6,916 nucleotides of DNA from contig CALMPB010000481.1 of the NCBI GenBank assembly GCA_937871985.1, positions 1 through 6,916 on the forward strand, given 5' to 3'. Of this stretch, positions 1 to 6,916 are shown one piece after another. Below the pieces are notes generated by a model. The model saw nothing but the letters and a program-made list of their open reading frames with translations. It was not told the origin of the DNA and made no database searches. Both the position numbers and the translations under genes were made by a program. This DNA is from an uncultured Burkholderiaceae bacterium. Its GTDB lineage: Bacteria > Pseudomonadota > Gammaproteobacteria > Burkholderiales > Burkholderiaceae. The stretch's first letter is position 1; every line of letters begins with the position of its first letter.

Positions 1-657
1 AAGCCGGATCTGTATTTGGCTGACGCCGTCAACAACGACGTTGCCATTGCAAATAACTCGGACGCATTGATTTACGACCGCATGATGCCAAACGGTGGGC
101 TTCGTTGGGACGCCTTAGTCGATTGGTGGCGTGATCGAGAGCGACTTGAGAAATGGGCTGACGCTAGGAAGAATCTATTCCTTAGATTGCGTGCTGCGGT
201 ATATGCGGCCCAGTCGCCGGGGGAAGTTGCTATCTTTGAAGCCTACTACGCACACTTCGCGAGAGACATCGGCGACAAGCTACCCGCGTTGATTCCTCAG
301 GTGTATCTGCACTACGACCCTAGGACAGCCCTGGAGCGTGGAGCAAATCGAGTTCTTCCGCGACAGCGCATGGATTTTCTGCTCTTGCTCGAACACGGTA
401 CTCGTGTCGTTGTGGAGGTGGACGGCAGACATCACTTCGCCAATGGGAATGCCGCATCGCCCGCCAAGTACGCGGAGATGGCAGCCGAAGATCGGCGCCT
501 ACGGTTGCAGGGCTATGAGGTCTATCGCTTTGGCGCAGCCGAGTTTACAGATGTGGAGCGCATCAGAGGACGTTACGTAGCGGGTCCGCGCTCGAAGCAA
601 CTCATCGTCAACTTCTTCCAGCAGTTGTTCGCAAAGTATCCTAATGTGGGGTGTTGA
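1..657 (+). CDS. C-terminal part of a DUF559/Vsr-like (PD-(D/E)XK-type) nuclease-domain protein, 5' end outside window
   Basis: The reading frame is open from the first base, so the start lies upstream; 218 codons are visible before TGA at 655-657. The last ~100 residues look like the DUF559/very-short-patch-repair endonuclease fold: an Asp in RMDF (codon 125), a strand ending VVVEVDG (Glu codon 139, Asp codon 141), then H-H-F, then a helix with E-D-R-R-L and the closing strand GYEVYRFGAAEF. That order (D, ExD, RxxxLxxxGYxVxRF) is typical of DUF559-like nucleases, which are often found in defence and mobile regions. The first ~60 visible residues (with LIYDRMMP and WDALVDWW) belong to a preceding domain I do not recognise. 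The stop overlaps the 3' end of the opposite-strand gene by 17 bp. GC is clearly below that of the metabolic genes further right. DNA cleavage is inferred from the motif pattern; the target is unknown. Confidence 0.75.
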   Translation, partial: KPDLYLADAVNNDVAIANNSDALIYDRMMPNGGLRWDALVDWWRDRERLEKWADARKNLFLRLRAAVYAAQSPGEVAIFEAYYAHFARDIGDKLPALIPQVYLHYDPRTALERGANRVLPRQRMDFLLLLEHGTRVVVEVDGRHHFANGNAASPAKYAEMAAEDRRLRLQGYEVYRFGAAEFTDVERIRGRYVAGPRSKQLIVNFFQQLFAKYPNVGC

Positions 658-1846
658 GCATGCGGCTACCCCAATCAGAGAGGTAAGCCAAAGCCTGAGC
701 AAGCATTTCACCGTTACTCACGGCGATTACTGCCCACGTGGTAGAGATAACCACGGCCAAGATGACACACTTGATGAAATAGAGGGTGCATTGCTGCCTG
801 GTAACTCGCTCTTCTAGCGTTGTGAAAAGCGGAAGAATGCTGGCGTTGCTACCAGCCGGCATTTTTTCTATCTTGGCTTTTCTGCGGCGAATCTGGGCGC
901 TTATGGCGACAATCGAATGCTTTTGATTGGACGCAAGTATCCACACAAAAATGATGAACACGACAACACCGAAGAGAACAGAGTAGTTGCGTAGAGGCTC
1001 CTCTGCCTTAATTGTCGCTCCAGCCAGCAAGATCGCTGCTGGCAACGCTAATAGCTGATTTTGAATATCCGCCAATGTTTTGTTGAGACTGATCGTGTCA
1101 TCCAGATTCTGGCGCTCTACCTCTTCCCTAACCTTAGCCACGGAAAATTCGTCCATGTACATCGCCAGTGAATGGCGAGCATCGGTGGCAATGGCCTCAA
1201 ACTTGTCCAGTACCTTGGCCATAGTCACGCTTCGATTCGGCCGAAATTGTTCGATCAGAGTGGTGCGAATGATTGAACGCTTCTGATTGGCGTGGGACTC
1301 TTCGTTGGAAAACTCTACTGCAAAATGCGGAAATGAAGGGAGTGGTCGCAGATCGCCGAGCCCGAACTCCGGCAGAATCGTAAGCTGGGACTCGTAGTTA
1401 GATACGAAGAGAAGCCCGCCATTGCGCACGTCGGCGAGTTTATCGAGCACTGACAATAGCCGAACAGCGTCCATATATTGCGCTATCGAGTCCGGCACCG
1501 TCCCCGTGGTCGTTGCAATAGGATGGGTGAACCCGGTATCGCGAACGGTGAAACGAGTCGGGATGCGGCTGCGATTCAAGGCGACACCGAGCAGTTCCCG
1601 GAGATCTTCGTATACGTTGGCATTGGATGGGTGAAATCCAATCGTACGTGTGTCAGCCCTGCAAGCACCGGCTAGCGATTGTGGCAAATTCTCCAAGTGT
1701 CCTTCAACAGAGGGAAAATCCAAGTTGGCAGGCAGCCTGCCTTCCCACAAGGCACTGTCACCTACACGCGCTGGTTCCTCTAAATTATCGAACAACCAGA
1801 GAGCGAAGTCGTGCGAATCAGCCGGTAGTCCCATCGACATGTTCAA
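641..1846 (-). CDS. Unrecognised membrane-anchored protein, second gene of the NdpA-like pair
   Basis: This is a 401-residue protein I cannot assign to a family. Residues 1-205 look globular and soluble. Residues ~206-262 are charged and probably helical. The C-terminal third carries about three hydrophobic segments: ~265-281 (LLALPAAILLAGATI), ~288-307 (YSVLFGVVVFIIFVWILAS) and ~357-377 (FIKCVILAVVISTTWAVIAV). A basic stretch, RRRKAKIEK at ~320-328, lies between the last two. No signal peptide is visible, so the N-terminal part is probably cytoplasmic and tethered to the inner membrane. The furthest start is TTG at 1846 with AGGA at 1852-1855 five bases away; ATG at 1840 (11 bases from the same AGGA) is an equal candidate. 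Either start lies inside the end of the upstream NdpA-like gene, a 29- or 23-bp overlap implying translational coupling. The 3' end overlaps the convergent nuclease-like gene. Confidence 0.8.
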   Translation of the reverse strand: MNMSMGLPADSHDFALWLFDNLEEPARVGDSALWEGRLPANLDFPSVEGHLENLPQSLAGACRADTRTIGFHPSNANVYEDLRELLGVALNRSRIPTRFTVRDTGFTHPIATTTGTVPDSIAQYMDAVRLLSVLDKLADVRNGGLLFVSNYESQLTILPEFGLGDLRPLPSFPHFAVEFSNEESHANQKRSIIRTTLIEQFRPNRSVTMAKVLDKFEAIATDARHSLAMYMDEFSVAKVREEVERQNLDDTISLNKTLADIQNQLLALPAAILLAGATIKAEEPLRNYSVLFGVVVFIIFVWILASNQKHSIVAISAQIRRRKAKIEKMPAGSNASILPLFTTLEERVTRQQCTLYFIKCVILAVVISTTWAVIAVSNGEMLAQALAYLSDWGSRMLNTPH

Positions 1847-2870
1847 GAATGTCCTGTTTTAGTTTCTGAGACGGTTGCTTGATGATGATTGCATCATACT
1901 GGCTGTCGTATTTAACCGCACCAGAACGGACATCTTCGACGTCAAAACTCAAGCGTACTGTTCCCATAGTGCCTGTGATCCGTCGGAGGACTTGAGTAGT
2001 CTTTCTGTCAGGTTTGAATCTACCATCGAACTTGTATTTTCGTTCACCGTCGACAACGGACTGACTAAAGGTGATGAATTCTCCCGGTTCGGCGGGGTTG
2101 ATCGCCGCCGCAGCGGTCACCAAGGTCACCTCTTCCCTGTTCTGCTGCAAACATTCGAATAGGCGCCGGCGGGTATCCAGTCGTTCGTGTTGCTTTTGCT
2201 CCTCGGTTACTAGATCGGTACGCTGCATGACGAAGTCATCAGCCGCCTGGATCAGTTGTTTCGTCTGCTCGGCTGCGTTGGTGTAGTTCTGACAGGCCAA
2301 TGCATTTCGGAAGTACTCCGTGACCTCGGTTGCCTTGCGGGAGCCCTTGATGAAGGTCAGGTATGGCTCTTCGCTTGCCTGCAAACGCGTGATGTTAATA
2401 CGCGCGGCTTCGTTAAGTAGATCAAGGTCGATATTCAACGTTGGCTGCAGGCTCAAGCTCGTTTCGTCGATGCCAGCGCCGGGCTTGAGTTTCAGCATGG
2501 CGATGAGCAGGAAGTCATTCGGCTGCTCGCGGTAACGCAGGAACAGGGCATATCCGCCATTTGCTAAGCGCGAGACCGCCATCTGGCTGGCTATCAGATC
2601 GACGGTCGAGTTGCTCAAGCCTTGAAACGTCAACGAGCCTTGCAAATACTCATTAAAGCGCACGGGGAACACATGCACGTCGGGGTTGTTGCCAAAAGAG
2701 CCAGAACTGTCCGATGTCCGGTAATAAAGAGCGAGCAGATCGCGACATACTCCTTCCAGTGTCTCATCAATTGGTAGATTGGCACCGCGCAACTGTGTAG
2801 TGACAGAGTTCTCGCCGTGTGTATGAGCAGCCTTCTGCAAGCGATGGATCGTGGCATCAATGATCTGCAC
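1818..2870 (-). CDS. NdpA/YejK-type (37-kDa) nucleoid-associated protein
   Basis: This 350-residue protein matches the E. coli YejK/NdpA family along its whole length (YejK is ~335 residues). Shared landmarks, from memory of YejK, are an N-terminal helix beginning like DINQIALHQL (here QIIDATIHRL), GGYALFLRYR at 105-114 (YejK GGFVLFCHYR), the LNIDLDLLNEAARI region at 145-159 (YejK LDINHADIVARIDL), PYLTFIKGS at 169-177 (YejK RYLTFLKGR), an IQAADDF motif at 207-213 and a C-terminal strand DAIIIKQPSQKLKQDI. YejK binds the nucleoid and has been reported to interact with topoisomerase IV and gyrase. This copy is divergent and lies in a low-GC island, so it is probably an accessory paralogue, not the housekeeping one. 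The GTG start at 2870 matches the family N-terminus and has AAGGA at 2880-2884, nine bases upstream. The membrane protein gene overlaps its last 29 bp. Confidence 0.88.
   Translation of the reverse strand: MQIIDATIHRLQKAAHTHGENSVTTQLRGANLPIDETLEGVCRDLLALYYRTSDSSGSFGNNPDVHVFPVRFNEYLQGSLTFQGLSNSTVDLIASQMAVSRLANGGYALFLRYREQPNDFLLIAMLKLKPGAGIDETSLSLQPTLNIDLDLLNEAARINITRLQASEEPYLTFIKGSRKATEVTEYFRNALACQNYTNAAEQTKQLIQAADDFVMQRTDLVTEEQKQHERLDTRRRLFECLQQNREEVTLVTAAAAINPAEPGEFITFSQSVVDGERKYKFDGRFKPDRKTTQVLRRITGTMGTVRLSFDVEDVRSGAVKYDSQYDAIIIKQPSQKLKQDILEHVDGTTG
1852..1855 (-). promoter_or_regulatory. Ribosome binding site for the membrane-protein gene, inside the NdpA-like gene
   Basis: The minus strand reads ACAGGACATTCTTGAACATG. 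AGGA sits 5 bases before a TTG and 11 bases before an ATG in the same frame, so both starts share it. The site lies within the last dozen codons of the upstream gene, so ribosomes finishing that gene could reinitiate here. Confidence 0.5.
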
Positions 2871-2879
2871 GGAAAGCGT

Positions 2880-2884
2880 TCCTT
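2880..2884 (-). promoter_or_regulatory. Ribosome binding site deciding the GTG start of the NdpA-like gene
   Basis: The minus strand reads AAGGAACGCTTTCCGTG: AAGGA followed by nine bases and GTG. Good spacing, plus agreement of the resulting N-terminus with YejK, supports this start over any downstream Met. Confidence 0.65.
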
Positions 2885-2891
2885 AATGGAT

Positions 2892-2918
2892 GCGAGCTGA
2901 GCCATGCCGCCGGCTCGC
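2892..2918 (-). other. Hairpin in the leader of the NdpA-like gene
   Basis: GCGAGC at 2892-2897 and GCTCGC at 2913-2918 form a perfect 6-bp inverted repeat with a 15-base loop; an overlapping alternative pairs GAGCC with GGCTC. It lies between the stop of the gene remnant (2929) and the ribosome binding site at 2880-2884. No T-run follows on the minus strand, so it is not a convincing intrinsic terminator. It may be a leftover processing or attenuation element, or chance. Confidence 0.3.
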
Positions 2919-2928
2919 TGCTATGTCT

Positions 2929-3060
2929 TTAGCATTTCAGAATTTGGGCCACCTTCGCTTTGTCCGTGGCCCAGCTAGTTCCTTCAAAAATCTCTGTGAC
3001 TGAAAAGCTAGGATAATTGTATCCATTAATGTCTTGACGACCAGCTTTTAGTGAAACCAC
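2929..3060 (-). pseudogene. C-terminal remnant of an unidentified gene upstream of the NdpA-like gene
   Basis: On the minus strand a frame is open for 43 codons from 3060 to TAA at 2929-2931 and reads like real protein: SLKAGRQDINGYNYPSFSV, then TEIFEGTSWATDKAKVAQIL, ending in KC. It uses low-GC codons (GAA, AAA, ATT, TTT) like the two genes after it and ends 58 bases before the GTG of the NdpA-like gene, as an upstream operon partner would. In-frame stops lie just beyond 3060 (TAG at 3061-3063), exactly where base composition rises, and no ATG with a ribosome binding site is available inside it. I infer the tail of a gene whose 5' part was removed by deletion or recombination at about 3060. 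I do not recognise the family. It could be a chance open frame, but its composition and position argue against that. Confidence 0.45.
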
Positions 3061-3397
3061 CTACAACGCTCCGGCCGGTTAGCAAATGGGTGCAAAGCGT
3101 TATCGGAAGGCATCGGCGCGAGCCACCCTCGTTGAAGATGCCCGCTTGGATGGCAAGACGTCGGGCTTCATCTCGGGGACGCAGATTCTCAACCTTGGGA
3201 GACGCACTTGCTGGCGTCGCAGGCATGGAATCAAAAGAAAGGACGGCGCACGAGCGCGGGCGTGTTAGGAAGTTATCTTTCGCAAGGCGGATGAGCTTCC
3301 GCGGGTTGGTCTGGTTGACGAAGTCTGCACTTGGCGTCGCGTTGACGATTGTTACGGATAGGCTCTCCGCAACGGTTCAGGACGAGGAAAGCCAGCA
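3061..3397. other. Unassigned junction segment without an intact gene
   Basis: This ~340-base stretch is intermediate in GC between island and core and carries no gene I can defend. The minus strand has one frame open from 3376 down to TAA at 3026-3028, with no usable start before ATG 3226 and no ribosome binding site there; it contains FVNQTNPRKLIRLAKDNF and then RDEARRLAIQAGIFN. The plus strand has an equally open frame from GTG 3051 running through it and on into the LysR remnant in the wrong frame. Both could be fragments of a mobile element or shadows of each other. I see no inverted-repeat ends, integrase motif or tRNA. It is probably debris from the rearrangement that truncated its two neighbours. 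Confidence 0.4.
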
Positions 3398-3619
3398 CCG
3401 GGCGGCGCGGGCATCGGCCAGATCGCCAGCTACTACGCGGCGCCGCACATCCGCGCGGGCAGGCTGCGCCCGGTGTCCATCGGCTACGTCTCGCGCCAGG
3501 TCGACGTCCATCTCTACCTGCCCCAGCGCGACCACATCCCCCTGCGCTGCCGCGCGCTGGCCGACTATCTGCTGGCCGAACTCCAACGCAATCCGGACCT
3601 GGTGCCCGCGGCATTCTGA
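3398..3619 (+). pseudogene. Truncated LysR-type transcriptional regulator (C-terminal end only)
   Basis: A frame ending at TGA 3617-3619 encodes the last ~73 residues of a LysR-type effector-binding domain. The diagnostic GxGIxQxxxYxxxPHxxxGRLxPV pattern is clear: AGIGQIASYYAAPHIRAGRL, then RPVSIGYVSRQVDVHLYLPQ and a last helix RALADYLLAELQRNPDL. A full LysR protein is ~300 residues; the DNA-binding helix-turn-helix and the first effector subdomain are missing. The frame is open only back to TAG at 3359-3361, and similarity to the family is lost upstream of about 3398. Its high GC and C-ending codons match the core genes. I infer that the junction of the acquired region destroyed a resident lysR upstream of ahcY. 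It cannot bind DNA as a regulator. Confidence 0.8.
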
Positions 3620-3676
3620 TGCCGGAATCCCGCGCGGCGCGCCCTCGGCCGTCATGCCGGCGACGCGGGAACCCGC

Positions 3677-3682
3677 TACAAT
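3677..3682 (+). promoter_or_regulatory. Probable -10 element of the ahcY promoter
   Basis: TACAAT at 3677-3682 is a near-consensus sigma-70 -10 box in otherwise GC-rich DNA. A start about 7 bases downstream would fall at ~3689, the first base or so of the riboswitch aptamer. No good -35 is visible at the ideal spacing, so the promoter may be weak or activator-assisted. Confidence 0.55.
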
Positions 3683-3689
3683 GCCAGCC

Positions 3690-3795
3690 ACCTGAGGAGC
3701 GTTGCGACGACCGGCATTTGCGCCAGGCCGCCAGGCTCAGGTAACGGATCGGCCGCGGCCCGCCAGGGCGGCACCGGTCCACGGCAACGGCGCTC
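3690..3795 (+). ncRNA. S-adenosylhomocysteine (SAH) riboswitch aptamer, ahcY leader
   Basis: The sequence has the hallmarks of the SAH riboswitch found upstream of ahcY in beta- and gammaproteobacteria: CCTGAGGAGCGTTGCGAC at the 5' side, CCAGGCTCAGG in the middle and GCAACGGCGCTC at the 3' side. Two crossing helices give the pseudoknot: ACCTGAG (3690-3696) with CTCAGGT (3736-3742), and CGTTGC (3700-3705) with GCAACG (3784-3789), extended by GAG (3697-3699) with CTC (3793-3795). A hairpin CGGC/GCCG (3712-3715/3727-3730) and a second helix GGATCGG/CCGGTCC (3746-3752/3774-3780, one U-G pair) fill the spaces. In this family SAH binding turns ahcY on, so the enzyme is made when its substrate accumulates. 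Confidence 0.9.
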
Positions 3796-3881
3796 GCCCC
3801 ACATCCTGCCCCTTGCAGGCCATGCGGCGAGCCTTCCCGGCTCACGCCGCGGCGTCAAAGGGCAAGCACTTTGGAGTCCTC
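3792..3881 (+). promoter_or_regulatory. Putative expression platform of the SAH riboswitch
   Basis: Hairpin A pairs CCTGC (3805-3809) with GCAGG (3815-3819). Hairpin B pairs GCGGCG-AGCC (3824-3833) with GGCT-CA-CGCCGC (3839-3850), ten pairs with a CA bulge. GGCGAGC (3826-3832) can instead pair perfectly with GCTCGCC (3792-3798), which overlaps the last strand of the aptamer, so hairpin B and that alternative exclude each other. When hairpin B is open, its GGCTC (3839-3843) can cover GAGTC (3874-3878), which contains most of the ahcY Shine-Dalgarno GGAG (3873-3876). This gives a translational ON switch. The pairings are seen in the sequence; the mechanism is inference. No T-run follows hairpin B, so termination is less likely. 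Confidence 0.5.
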
Positions 3882-5300
3882 ATGAACGCTGTACCCAACG
3901 CCCAGACCCCCGACTGCCGCATCGCCGACCCCGCCCTGGCCAACTGGGGCCGCCGCGAGATCAGCATCGCCGAAACCGAGATGCCCGGCCTGATGGCGAT
4001 CCGCGAGGAATTCGCCGCCACCCAGCCGCTCAAGGGCGCCCGCATCGCCGGCAGCCTGCACATGACCATCCAGACCGGCGTGCTGATCGAAACGCTGGTG
4101 GCGCTGGGCGCCGAAGTGCGCTGGGCCTCGTGCAACATCTTCTCGACGCAGGACCACGCCGCCGCCGCCATCGCCGCGTCGGGCACGCCGGTCTTCGCCG
4201 TCAAGGGCGAAACGCTGGAAGAGTACTGGCAGTACACCCACAAGATCTTCGAATGGCCCAATGGCCAGAACGCCAACATGATCCTCGACGATGGCGGCGA
4301 CGCCACGTTGATGCTGCACCTGGGCACCAAGGCCGAGAAGGACATCTCGGTGCTGGCCAACCCCGGCAGCGAGGAAGAGCGCGTGCTGTTCGCCGCCATC
4401 AAGCAAACGCTCGAGCGCGATCCGAAGTGGTACTCGACGCGCCTGGCCCTGATCAAGGGCGTGACCGAGGAAACCACCACCGGCGTGCACCGCCTGTACC
4501 AGATGTCGCAGAAGGGCGAGCTGGCCTTCGCCGCCATCAACGTCAACGACTCGGTCACCAAGTCCAAGTTCGACAACCTGTACGGCTGCCGCGAATCGCT
4601 GGTGGACGGCATCAAGCGCGCCACCGACGTGATGGTCGCCGGCAAGGTTGCCGTCGTGGCTGGCTACGGCGACGTGGGCAAGGGCTGCGCCCAGGCGCTG
4701 GTTGCGCTGCGCGCCCAGGTCTGGGTCACCGAAGTCGACCCGATCTGCGCCCTGCAGGCCGCCATGGAAGGCTTCAAGGTCGTGACCATGGAAGAGGCCG
4801 CTGCCCACGGCGACATCTTCGTCACCGCCACCGGCAACTACCACGTCATCACGCGTGAGCACATGAACGCCATGAAAGACCAGGCGATCGTCTGCAACAT
4901 CGGCCACTTCGACAACGAAATCGACGTCGCCAGCCTGGCCGACTGCAAGTGGGAAGAGATCAAGCCGCAGGTCGACCACGTCATCTTCCCGGACGGCAAG
5001 CGCATCATCCTGCTGGCCCAGGGCCGCCTGGTGAACCTGGGTTGCGCCACCGGCCACCCCTCGTTCGTGATGTCGTCGTCGTTCGCCAACCAGACCATCG
5101 CCCAGATCGAGCTGTTCACGCGCAACGACGCCTACAAGTCGGGCGAAGTCTACGTGCTGCCCAAGCACCTGGACGAGAAGGTCGCGCGCCTGCACCTGAA
5201 GAAGCTGGGCGTCCAACTGACCCAACTGCGCACCGACCAGGCCGCCTACATCAACGTGCCGGTCGAGGGCCCCTACAAGCCCGAGCACTACCGCTATTGA
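3882..5300 (+). CDS. ahcY: Adenosylhomocysteinase (S-adenosyl-L-homocysteine hydrolase)
   Basis: AhcY reversibly splits S-adenosylhomocysteine into adenosine and homocysteine, relieving product inhibition of SAM-dependent methyltransferases; it is a cytoplasmic, NAD-dependent tetramer. The 472-residue length is that of the form with a ~40-residue insertion (here around residues 150-190). Visible landmarks: SLHMT with the conserved His at 60, [11 protein letters not shown] with Lys227 and Asp231 of the active site, the NAD-binding GYGDVGKG at 261-268 followed by [21 protein letters not shown], and the C-terminal KPEHYRY whose Lys and Tyr reach the NAD of a neighbouring subunit. ATG 3882 has GGAG at 3873-3876, five bases upstream; the frame is open further upstream, but that part is the riboswitch. 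It is controlled by the SAH riboswitch and heads the block with the membrane protein and metF. Confidence 0.98.
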
Positions 5301-5309
5301 TCGTTCCTT

Positions 5310-5344
5310 TCCGGGGCCCCGCGCCCCGGACGCCCCCACTTTTT
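5310..5344 (+). terminator. Terminator-like hairpin between ahcY and the membrane-protein gene
   Basis: TCCGGGGC (5310-5317) pairs perfectly with GCCCCGGA (5323-5330) around a 5-base loop, 10 bases after the ahcY stop. A five-T run follows at 5340-5344, but nine bases separate it from the stem, so it is a poor intrinsic terminator. It may stop part of the transcripts, lowering metF relative to ahcY, or protect the ahcY 3' end. Confidence 0.45.
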
Positions 5345-5354
5345 CCCCTCTGGC

Positions 5355-5360
5355 AAGGAG
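5355..5360 (+). promoter_or_regulatory. Strong ribosome binding site of the PF04020-like gene
   Basis: AAGGAG six bases before ATG 5367 is a full-consensus Shine-Dalgarno and fixes the start of this short, strongly hydrophobic protein. Confidence 0.8.
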
Positions 5361-5366
5361 TTCGCG

Positions 5367-5705
5367 ATGACCCTGTTACTCGTCTGGTTGCTCAACGCCG
5401 TGGCACTGCTGGTCGTGGCCTATCTGCTGCCCGGCATCACCGTGGCGAGCTTCGGTTCGGCGCTGATCGCGGCGCTGGTGCTGGGCCTGCTCAATTCGCT
5501 GGTCAAGCCGGTGCTGGTGCTGCTGACGCTGCCGATCACCGTGGTCACGCTGGGTTTGTTCCTGGTCGTGCTGAACGCGCTGCTGTTCTGGTTTGCGGGT
5601 TCGATCCTGAAGGGTTTTCAGGTCAACGGCTTCTGGTGGGCCGTGATCGGGGCGCTGCTCTACAGTCTGATCTCGGGCCTGCTGTCGGCCATCGTGCCGA
5701 ACTGA
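5367..5705 (+). CDS. Small four-helix membrane protein, 'phage holin family' (PF04020-like)
   Basis: The 112-residue protein is almost wholly hydrophobic, with about four membrane segments: ~3-22, ~28-48, ~52-76 and ~88-110. The pattern LNAVALLVVAYLLPGITV, then LGLLNSLVKPVL, then LTLPITVVTLGLF and a final GFWWAVIGALLYSLISGLL is characteristic of the family called 'mycobacterial 4-TMS phage holin superfamily IV' or PF04020. Despite the name these are widespread chromosomal proteins with no proven lytic role, and nothing phage-like lies beside this one. AAGGAG at 5355-5360 gives a strong start. The gene lies 66 bp after ahcY and 25 bp before metF on the same strand, an arrangement I recall as common in betaproteobacteria, so it is probably co-expressed with them. 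A link to SAM/folate metabolism is suggested by position only. Confidence 0.88.
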   Translation: MTLLLVWLLNAVALLVVAYLLPGITVASFGSALIAALVLGLLNSLVKPVLVLLTLPITVVTLGLFLVVLNALLFWFAGSILKGFQVNGFWWAVIGALLYSLISGLLSAIVPN

Positions 5706-5730
5706 CCCTTTTCCTACAGGTTGCCCGCAA

Positions 5731-6597
5731 GTGAGTTCATCCTTATCTCCCGACGCGGCGCCGGCTGACGCCGCGCCGGTCTTCAGCCTGGAGTTCTTCC
5801 CGCCGCGCGACATCGCGGCGCAGGAACGGCTGGTGCGCACGGCCAAGCAGTTGCAGGGCCTGCATCCCCATTTCGCCAGCGTGACGTTCGGCGCGGGCGG
5901 TTCGACCCGCGACGGCACGATGCTGGCGGTGTCGATGTTGCAGAAGCTGGGCTACGAGGCCGCGCCGCATCTGTCGTGCATAGGTTCGACGCCCGAGAGC
6001 CTGCGCGACATTCTCTATACGTACCGGCAGGCCGGGATCCGGCGGCTGGTGGCCCTGCGCGGGGACATGCCGTCGGGCATGGGCGACATGGGCGAGCTGC
6101 GCTATGCGCGGGACCTGGTGGATTTCATCCGCAGGGAAACGGGGGACTGGTTCCATATCGAGGTGGCGGCGTATCCGGAGATGCATCCGCAGGCCCAGGG
6201 GCCGGAGGCGGACCTGGACCGGTTCGTGGAGAAGATGCGGGCGGGCGCGGACAGCGCGATCACGCAGTATTTCTTCAATGCGGATGCGTATTTCGATTTC
6301 GTGGATCGGGCGACGGCCAAGGGGGTGCTGGCGCCCATCGTGCCGGGGATCATGCCGATCACGAACTACACGCAGTTGGCGCGGTTTTCGGATATGTGCG
6401 GGGCGGAGATTCCTCGGTGGATACGGTTGCGGCTGGCGTCGTATGGGGATGATCGGGCTTCCATCCGGGCGTTCGGGCATGAGGTGGTGGTGGAGCTTTG
6501 CCAGACGTTGCTGGATGGGGGGGCGCCGGGGTTGCATTTCTATACGATGAACCAGGCGGATGCTACGCAGGCTGTGTGGAAAGAGTTGGAGCGGTGA
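5731..6597 (+). CDS. metF: 5,10-methylenetetrahydrofolate reductase
   Basis: MetF is a flavoprotein that reduces 5,10-methylene-THF to 5-methyl-THF, the methyl donor for methionine synthesis from homocysteine. The 288-residue length is normal for the bacterial single-domain (TIM barrel) enzyme. Visible landmarks: SLEFFPPR with catalytic Glu21 (E. coli Glu28), SVTFGAGGSTRDGT at 50-63 near FAD, HLSCIG at 80-85, LVALRGD with Asp112 (E. coli Asp120, beside the flavin), IEVAAYPEMHP, a QYFFNADAYFDFV substrate-loop region, and PIVPGIMPITNY. The GTG start at 5731 gives the expected short leader before SLEFFPPR; its ribosome binding site is weak (ACAGG, ten bases upstream). No terminator separates it from the membrane-protein gene. 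Third positions drift from C-ending in the 5' part to G- and T-ending in the last third. Confidence 0.97.
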   Translation: MSSSLSPDAAPADAAPVFSLEFFPPRDIAAQERLVRTAKQLQGLHPHFASVTFGAGGSTRDGTMLAVSMLQKLGYEAAPHLSCIGSTPESLRDILYTYRQAGIRRLVALRGDMPSGMGDMGELRYARDLVDFIRRETGDWFHIEVAAYPEMHPQAQGPEADLDRFVEKMRAGADSAITQYFFNADAYFDFVDRATAKGVLAPIVPGIMPITNYTQLARFSDMCGAEIPRWIRLRLASYGDDRASIRAFGHEVVVELCQTLLDGGAPGLHFYTMNQADATQAVWKELER

Positions 6598-6620
6598 CGT
6601 CTCTTGGACGTTAGAGTTCT

Positions 6621-6916
6621 TTAGACGGTTGTTTCCGGGTTTGGGGCGTGGGGGCCGCGCATGCATCCTTCTTCGGTGATGATGGCGTCGAGCCGCATGT
6701 CGTGCGGCTCGGGTACGTGCACGTCGGGGGCCAGGCGGCCGCAGGCGTAGGCGATGCCCAGGGCCAGGGTCTCGTGGCCGCGCTGGCGCAGGGCGGCCAG
6801 GGTGCGGTCGTAGTAGCCGCCGCCGTAGCCGATGCGGTCACCGTCCAGGGTGTAGCCCAGGGTGGGGACCAGAACGATGTCGGGGATGCGGGGCTCGGCG
6901 GACTGGGGCTCGGGGA
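6621..6916 (-). CDS. ygfA: 5-formyltetrahydrofolate cyclo-ligase, C-terminal 97 residues
   Basis: The gene runs off the right edge; on the minus strand the first complete codon is at 6914-6912 and TAA is at 6621-6623. The ATP-dependent enzyme converts 5-formyl-THF to 5,10-methenyl-THF, recovering a storage or inhibitory folate. The family signature is plain: DIVLVPTLGYTLDGDRIG followed by YGGGYYDRTL (GYGGGYYD at 6807-6830), the glycine-rich nucleotide/folate-binding loop; then LALGIAYACG, VPEPHDMRLDAIITEEG and a short tail. In many proteobacteria the second motif starts with F-D; here it is GYTLDG. The gene converges on metF with only 23 bases between the two stops. C-ending codons match the core genes. 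The substrate links it to the one-carbon pool used by MetF, but it is transcribed separately. Confidence 0.93.
   Translation of the reverse strand, partial: PEPQSAEPRIPDIVLVPTLGYTLDGDRIGYGGGYYDRTLAALRQRGHETLALGIAYACGRLAPDVHVPEPHDMRLDAIITEEGCMRGPHAPNPETTV

Follow-up and report, generated by a model that had tools for sequence, protein, structure and literature searches.

The window analysed here is a 6,916-nucleotide (nt) stretch of contig CALMPB010000481.1 (positions 1–6,916, forward strand; assembly GCA_937871985.1) from an uncultured Burkholderiaceae bacterium, and it contains two overlapping minus-strand genes whose products resemble a pair of families that NCBIfam names DS1 anti-phage. 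The first gene (1818..2870) starts with GTG and encodes a 350-residue protein of the NA37/YejK family, the putative DNA-side component of the pair. The second (641..1846) encodes a membrane protein of 401 residues from a TTG at 1846 or of 399 residues from an ATG at 1840. The original prediction, made from the letters alone, had proposed a YejK/NdpA-type gene overlapping a 401-residue membrane-protein gene by 29 bp, and both frames were confirmed: the overlap (1818..1846, minus strand) measures 29 nt from the TTG and 23 nt from the ATG. Both starts are possible because an AGGA lies 5 bases ahead of the TTG, whereas the ATG is favoured by three of the closest relatives, which start with MSMHLP; the database copy of the protein (P0001) has 399 residues.

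The first protein matched Pfam PF04245 with an E value of 3.9e-49 and 168.2 bits (gathering score 24.6), which places it in the NA37/YejK superfamily. Against the housekeeping YejK model NF001557 it scored 163.3 bits, short of the curated cut-off of 341. The second protein matched the PHROGs family phrog_5023, of unknown function (E 4.7e-48), and in Pfam at E ≤ 1 gave a weak DUF1512 match only. Its predicted structure (pLDDT 89.0) comprises a mixed soluble N-terminal part to about residue 215, a long helix and helical membrane segments, and Foldseek found no PDB match for this model at E ≤ 0.001. About three C-terminal membrane helices had been expected, a fair description of two strong segments, at residues 288–306 (929..985, hydropathy 2.53) and 358–376 (719..775, hydropathy 2.30), and a weakly hydrophobic membrane-entry segment at residues 261–279 (1010..1066, hydropathy 1.49), all encoded on the minus strand. 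The basic stretch that follows the second segment would fit an N-in, three-helix topology. The entry segment carries the motif IQNQLLALPAA and lies in the best conserved part of the protein: the mean frequency of the commonest residue is 0.82 over residues 258–282 in 34 close alignment rows and 0.60 in 48 pairs, and 0.54 and 0.35, respectively, over residues 1–215.

Pairing and co-divergence of the two genes

Loci encoding homologues of the membrane protein were collected with that protein as the sole query, so the neighbouring gene was not selected for. The 47 loci comprised 3 annotated records, 24 genome contigs and 20 viral contigs; tblastn had given matches in five phage or plasmid records, of which H21, H23 and H25 were taken in and H22 and H24 left out. 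Some prophages entered the set twice, from two collections (L008/L029 and L016/L039, for instance). An NA37 frame lay directly upstream on the same strand at 46 of the 47 loci, and at the one locus without it (L044) the second gene is broken. Six paired loci (L010, L013, L020, L022, L026 and L038) have an adjacent NA37 frame that is itself broken or shorter than 320 codons. At the 40 of 47 loci where this frame has at least 320 codons, the intergenic gap ranged from −56 to +27 bases, with 36 of the 40 pairs overlapping. At the Methylomonas fluvii locus L020, pieces of the NA37 gene lie at 2861–3487 and 9373–9726, about 6 kb apart, which suggests an insertion into the pair.

Pairing was equally evident in genome samples. 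The NCBIfam model of the second DS-1 protein (DS1_2) matched 10 of 398 genomes in an even Pseudomonadota sample, the centre genome included (7 of 398 with our alignment A1 as the query). Besides the centre genome, 8 of the 9 carriers among 397 genomes had an NA37 neighbour and the ninth was a fragment; of these 8, G072 carries a second gene interrupted by a stop, and the NA37 frame of G382 spans only 169 codons. Eight of 295 Enterobacteriaceae genomes matched, seven of them with the pair and the eighth with a broken second gene. Adjacent co-occurrence of homologues, which had been proposed as a check, is thus found at 46 of 47 loci, in 8 of 9 carriers and in 7 of 8 Enterobacteriaceae. We then turned the comparison round: NA37 was present at 37 places in 33 of 200 Pseudomonadota genomes, and the best-scoring 30 places included 3 paired and 27 unpaired genes, one of the latter (L109) with only 259 bases of downstream sequence. 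Among the 7 places left out are the pair of the centre genome and several that match weakly, so the unpaired share leans towards housekeeping YejK. Housekeeping YejK/NdpA therefore differs from the window protein in being mostly unpaired, as originally supposed, and the window protein stays under the YejK cut-off. The data strongly support the pairing, and the two genes form a real unit.

In a tree of 76 NA37 proteins (48 paired and 28 solo), the window protein adjoined that of a Rhodanobacter pair (support 100/100; 72% identity). The paired or solo label changed twice over the tree, compared with a mean of 22.8 changes in shuffles, none of 500 of which was as low. The direction between solo and paired forms is not settled by this tree, because it is midpoint-rooted with several long branches and four paired rows (L003, L047, L052 and L054) fall on the solo side. 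The distances of the two proteins correlated closely over 48 pairs (Mantel r 0.934; 0 of 2000 permutations as high). Two residues of the NA37 protein, K127 and E154, are more frequent in paired than in solo NA37 proteins. Fifteen repeat loci were omitted from both analyses, as were NA37 frames under 300 residues from the tree and under 320 residues from the co-divergence test, which also omitted second proteins of 370 residues or less. Such co-divergence shows joint descent or transfer of the two genes; it does not by itself show contact between their products.

Relation to DS-1 and settings of related pairs

Both window proteins matched the NCBIfam anti-phage models: the first matched NF053868 (DS1_1_antiphage) with E 2.3e-20 and 72.9 bits (curated cut-off 330), and the second matched NF053869 (DS1_2_antiphage) with E 1.3e-18 and 67.3 bits (curated cut-off 315). 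Three pairs passed both cut-offs, L067, L068 and a prophage pair of E. coli F467 (L119), and these share with the window a layout in which an NA37-family gene comes first, followed on the same strand by the gene of a soluble-plus-membrane protein. Homology extended to both proteins when they were compared with the cut-off-passing members L067 and L119 (profile E values in hhalign of 3e-13, 1.9e-18, 8.4e-14 and 2.5e-17), and the second protein aligned with a full-scoring DS-1 member in BLASTP at E 3e-12 (22% identity over 275 columns). A prophage or mobile setting is a further likeness. The window differs from DS-1 in lying on a separate branch of the NA37 tree and in lacking, within residues 1–40 of its first protein, the N-terminal CxxC-type cysteine motifs of L067 and L068. 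The window is not alone in this, since L069, L070, L073 and L074 are likewise free of such cysteines in their printed N-terminal stretches. The cysteine motif is a putative zinc finger, which we infer to be a DS-1 hallmark; a figure legend in PMC13092281 has an entry for ZF that names no system.

That article, the DefensePredictor paper (2026, PMC13092281), states in its accessible text that 42 of 94 cloned units protected E. coli MG1655 in plaque assays, and includes a YejK nucleoid-associated domain in a list of ten whose part in defence was newly validated. The YejK-domain system was protective, and the accessible text gives no mechanism for it. Within the literature searched, as far as its texts were accessible, this paper alone ties YejK to phage defence. 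A search of its text did not find "DS-1" as a whole word, so we only infer that the NCBIfam DS1 families are its YejK system. The matches to the two DS1 models, together with the YejK domain in that paper, overturn the original description of the pair as an undescribed system, while the pairing holds, as does a likely defence role, given that both proteins are homologous to the DS-1 models. No genome passed the curated cut-offs among the 10 that matched in the 398-genome sample, and 2 of the 8 matching Enterobacteriaceae did; the curated cut-offs miss most of the paired family. The window pair is a divergent branch related to DS-1, a distant cousin and not the first of its kind, and it is very probably a DS-1-related defence pair.

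Relatives of the pair occur in viral contigs, plasmids and phage records. The full-scoring E. coli F467 pair (L119, 5791–8183) lies on the opposite strand between a holin gene and the antiterminator Q gene of a prophage. A pair on an E. coli plasmid record (L121, 3826–6218), known without NCBIfam scoring, sits likewise on the opposite strand between a holin and an antitermination gene, and it gave no PADLOC (2023) match at E ≤ 0.01. In Klebsiella phage P7641, a related pair (L120, 3563–5924; 86.8 and 103.2 bits, under the DS-1 cut-offs) has lysis-type genes on one side and other phage genes on the other. In a distant-mode search, the L068 query matched 105 of 5426 complete E. coli genomes through its first-gene DNA, and at the best places the match spans 23% of the query, all of it inside the first gene; a near-mode E. 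coli search with L067 gave no match. At L012 (5477–13326), co-oriented type III methyltransferase and restriction genes begin 18 bases after the pair. RmrA and PDC-S28 matches lie near the L014 pair and a DpdH-like match near that of L009, where four other scanned neighbours had none. From 180 proteins listed around pairs in 20 of the 24 genome-contig loci, 118 neighbours at 13 loci were scanned singly (two long L015 proteins were omitted, and the 25 commonest families per scan were considered); integrases, repressors, RecE-like exonucleases and other defence-model matches were among the families listed. The expectation of defence genes nearby is thus borne out for some pairs, by the type III restriction genes and other PADLOC matches; enrichment is not claimed, since the survey had no control neighbourhoods.

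Mobile occurrence would also suit a pair that regulates its own element, by gene silencing, excision or transfer, and has no anti-phage role. NdpA2, an NA37 protein of the integrative and conjugative element PAPI-1, provides a precedent in that it controls transfer genes via MvaT (PMC8565334). NdpA2, however, works with TprA and MvaT, and the accessible text of that paper mentions no membrane partner; moreover, relatives of the window pair score as anti-phage families, and the two genes turn up together in settings that are otherwise unrelated, one of them next to type III restriction genes. We consider element regulation improbable.

Surroundings of the pair in the window

The GC content per 500 bases is 0.49–0.56 over positions 1–3250 and 0.62–0.70 from 3501 onward, so the pair does sit in low-GC DNA as first described, in a block beside high-GC host genes. 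The latter are ahcY, preceded by an S-adenosylhomocysteine (SAH) riboswitch (3688–3802; 43.7 bits, gathering score 37), a PF04020 membrane protein gene, metF and the end of a 5-formyltetrahydrofolate (5-FTHF) cyclo-ligase gene. The ahcY region is 93% identical to genome G803. The DNA of window positions 1–3400 matched none of 43 genomes of that genome's genus, an empty search that alone is no proof, and three relatives (L116–L118, upstream of ahcY) align only from about 3664 and so did not reveal the limits of the low-GC block. Promoter and terminator scans of 600–3500 gave sites no more numerous than in shuffles.

At the border of the block, outside the pair, a plus-strand piece (3410..3619) preceded by a stop (3359–3361) resembles the end of a LysR-type gene (PF03466, E 8.1e-4; 19.3 bits, below the gathering score of 28). 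The broken core gene of the original prediction survives as this piece and its stop, but its identity goes no further than a LysR-end resemblance below cut-off. We saw no convincing gene between the pair and this piece (2880–3400). On the other side, the predicted nuclease-domain neighbour is present as a gene open at the window edge (1–657), but its DUF559 match is weak (E 0.023) and below cut-off. This gene was rejected for now as a third component, because it had no tblastn match (E ≤ 0.01) in L001–L118 and has relatives of its own on 72 plasmid records, the best match, at 61% identity, being on a plasmid record from P. aeruginosa.

Proposed mechanism and its alternatives

Conserved adjacency, co-divergence, homology to the DS-1 models and the E. 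coli prophage pair, and occurrence on mobile elements lead us to read the pair as a defence module. Taken as a whole, the best explanation is that it is probably a mobile anti-phage module of two components, homologous to DS-1, with RexAB-like gating as its proposed mode of action. The NA37 protein would act on the DNA side and sense phage DNA or a disturbed nucleoid, and would then engage residues 1–257 of the membrane protein, which are presumed to lie in the cytoplasm. The conserved membrane-entry helix (IQNQLLALPAA) may form part of a gate or pore, the opening of which would de-energise the cell and abort infection in a RexAB-like way. The RexAB systems, known from phage lambda and the P. 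putida prophage P1, are described in the accessible text of PMC12894663 as a DNA-binding sensor with a membrane effector in prophages, and the window pair resembles them in combining a prophage-type DNA-side protein with a membrane protein. Within the DS-1-related defence reading, this particular mechanism is a serious but tentative possibility, a little short of an even call.

Several points weigh against this explanation. The window pair scores far below both curated DS-1 cut-offs and has no counterpart of the cysteines at the N-termini of L067 and L068, its best match in a PADLOC scan was only KwaA at E 0.083, with the second protein, and we found no phage assay for its branch. Joint transfer alone could explain the co-divergence. 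No sequence kinship to lambda RexA or RexB was seen (hhalign probability 0.1 and 0.3, one sequence each). The lambda frame that we take to be RexA was chosen by length and position, the record labelling all three frames rexb. The link between DS-1 and the YejK-domain system is drawn from NCBIfam names and the accessible text of PMC13092281. Direct sensing of DNA is not given either, because the mobile-element NA37 protein NdpA2 did not bind DNA by itself in gel-shift assays and acted by making MvaT bind more strongly, according to the accessible text of PMC8565334.

A soluble protein encoded first in overlapping genes, with a conserved membrane-entry helix in its partner, is also the picture expected if the NA37 protein restrained a toxic membrane protein in the toxin–antitoxin manner and phage attack on the nucleoid or on host transcription released it. 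Butters Gp30/Gp31, in which the soluble and membrane partners have reversed roles (accessible text of PMC12894663), lends this some colour; general family scans of both window proteins, however, listed no known toxin–antitoxin family, and we give this alternative little weight. In a Kiwa-like arrangement, the membrane protein would be anchor and infection sensor, and the membrane-held NA37 protein would bind incoming phage DNA and block its replication or transcription, the cell not being killed. Any fold resemblance of the DNA-side protein to KwaB appears weak. Kiwa homology was as invisible as originally stated: hhalign gave probabilities of 0.8 for the second protein against KwaA and 0.1 for the first against KwaB (six Kiwa-side sequences each). 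Moreover, KwaA is only about half as long as the second protein, which has an extensive soluble N-terminal region, and the gene order is reversed, KwaA preceding KwaB in L075–L080. As judged from these sequence comparisons kinship to Kiwa is not supported, and capture of this kind seems unlikely.

Returning to the DS-1-related module, DS-1 appears as a single branch within a far broader family whose members are consistently paired. This family makes natural variants available, along with a conserved motif in the membrane protein and a cargo position in prophages. In a broader and rather doubtful extension, NA37 proteins would be a recurrent sensor class of mobile-element immunity, with DS-1 as one branch of the lineages that join NA37 to a membrane protein and the window as another; they would read the DNA state of the nucleoid and use the IQNQLLALPAA helix to gate a membrane effector. 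Housekeeping YejK would then be a solo relative of the sensor and might be derived from it, a direction that the midpoint-drawn tree does not settle. To our knowledge YejK has long been without a clear role, and the paired defence form of NA37 offers a testable angle on it.

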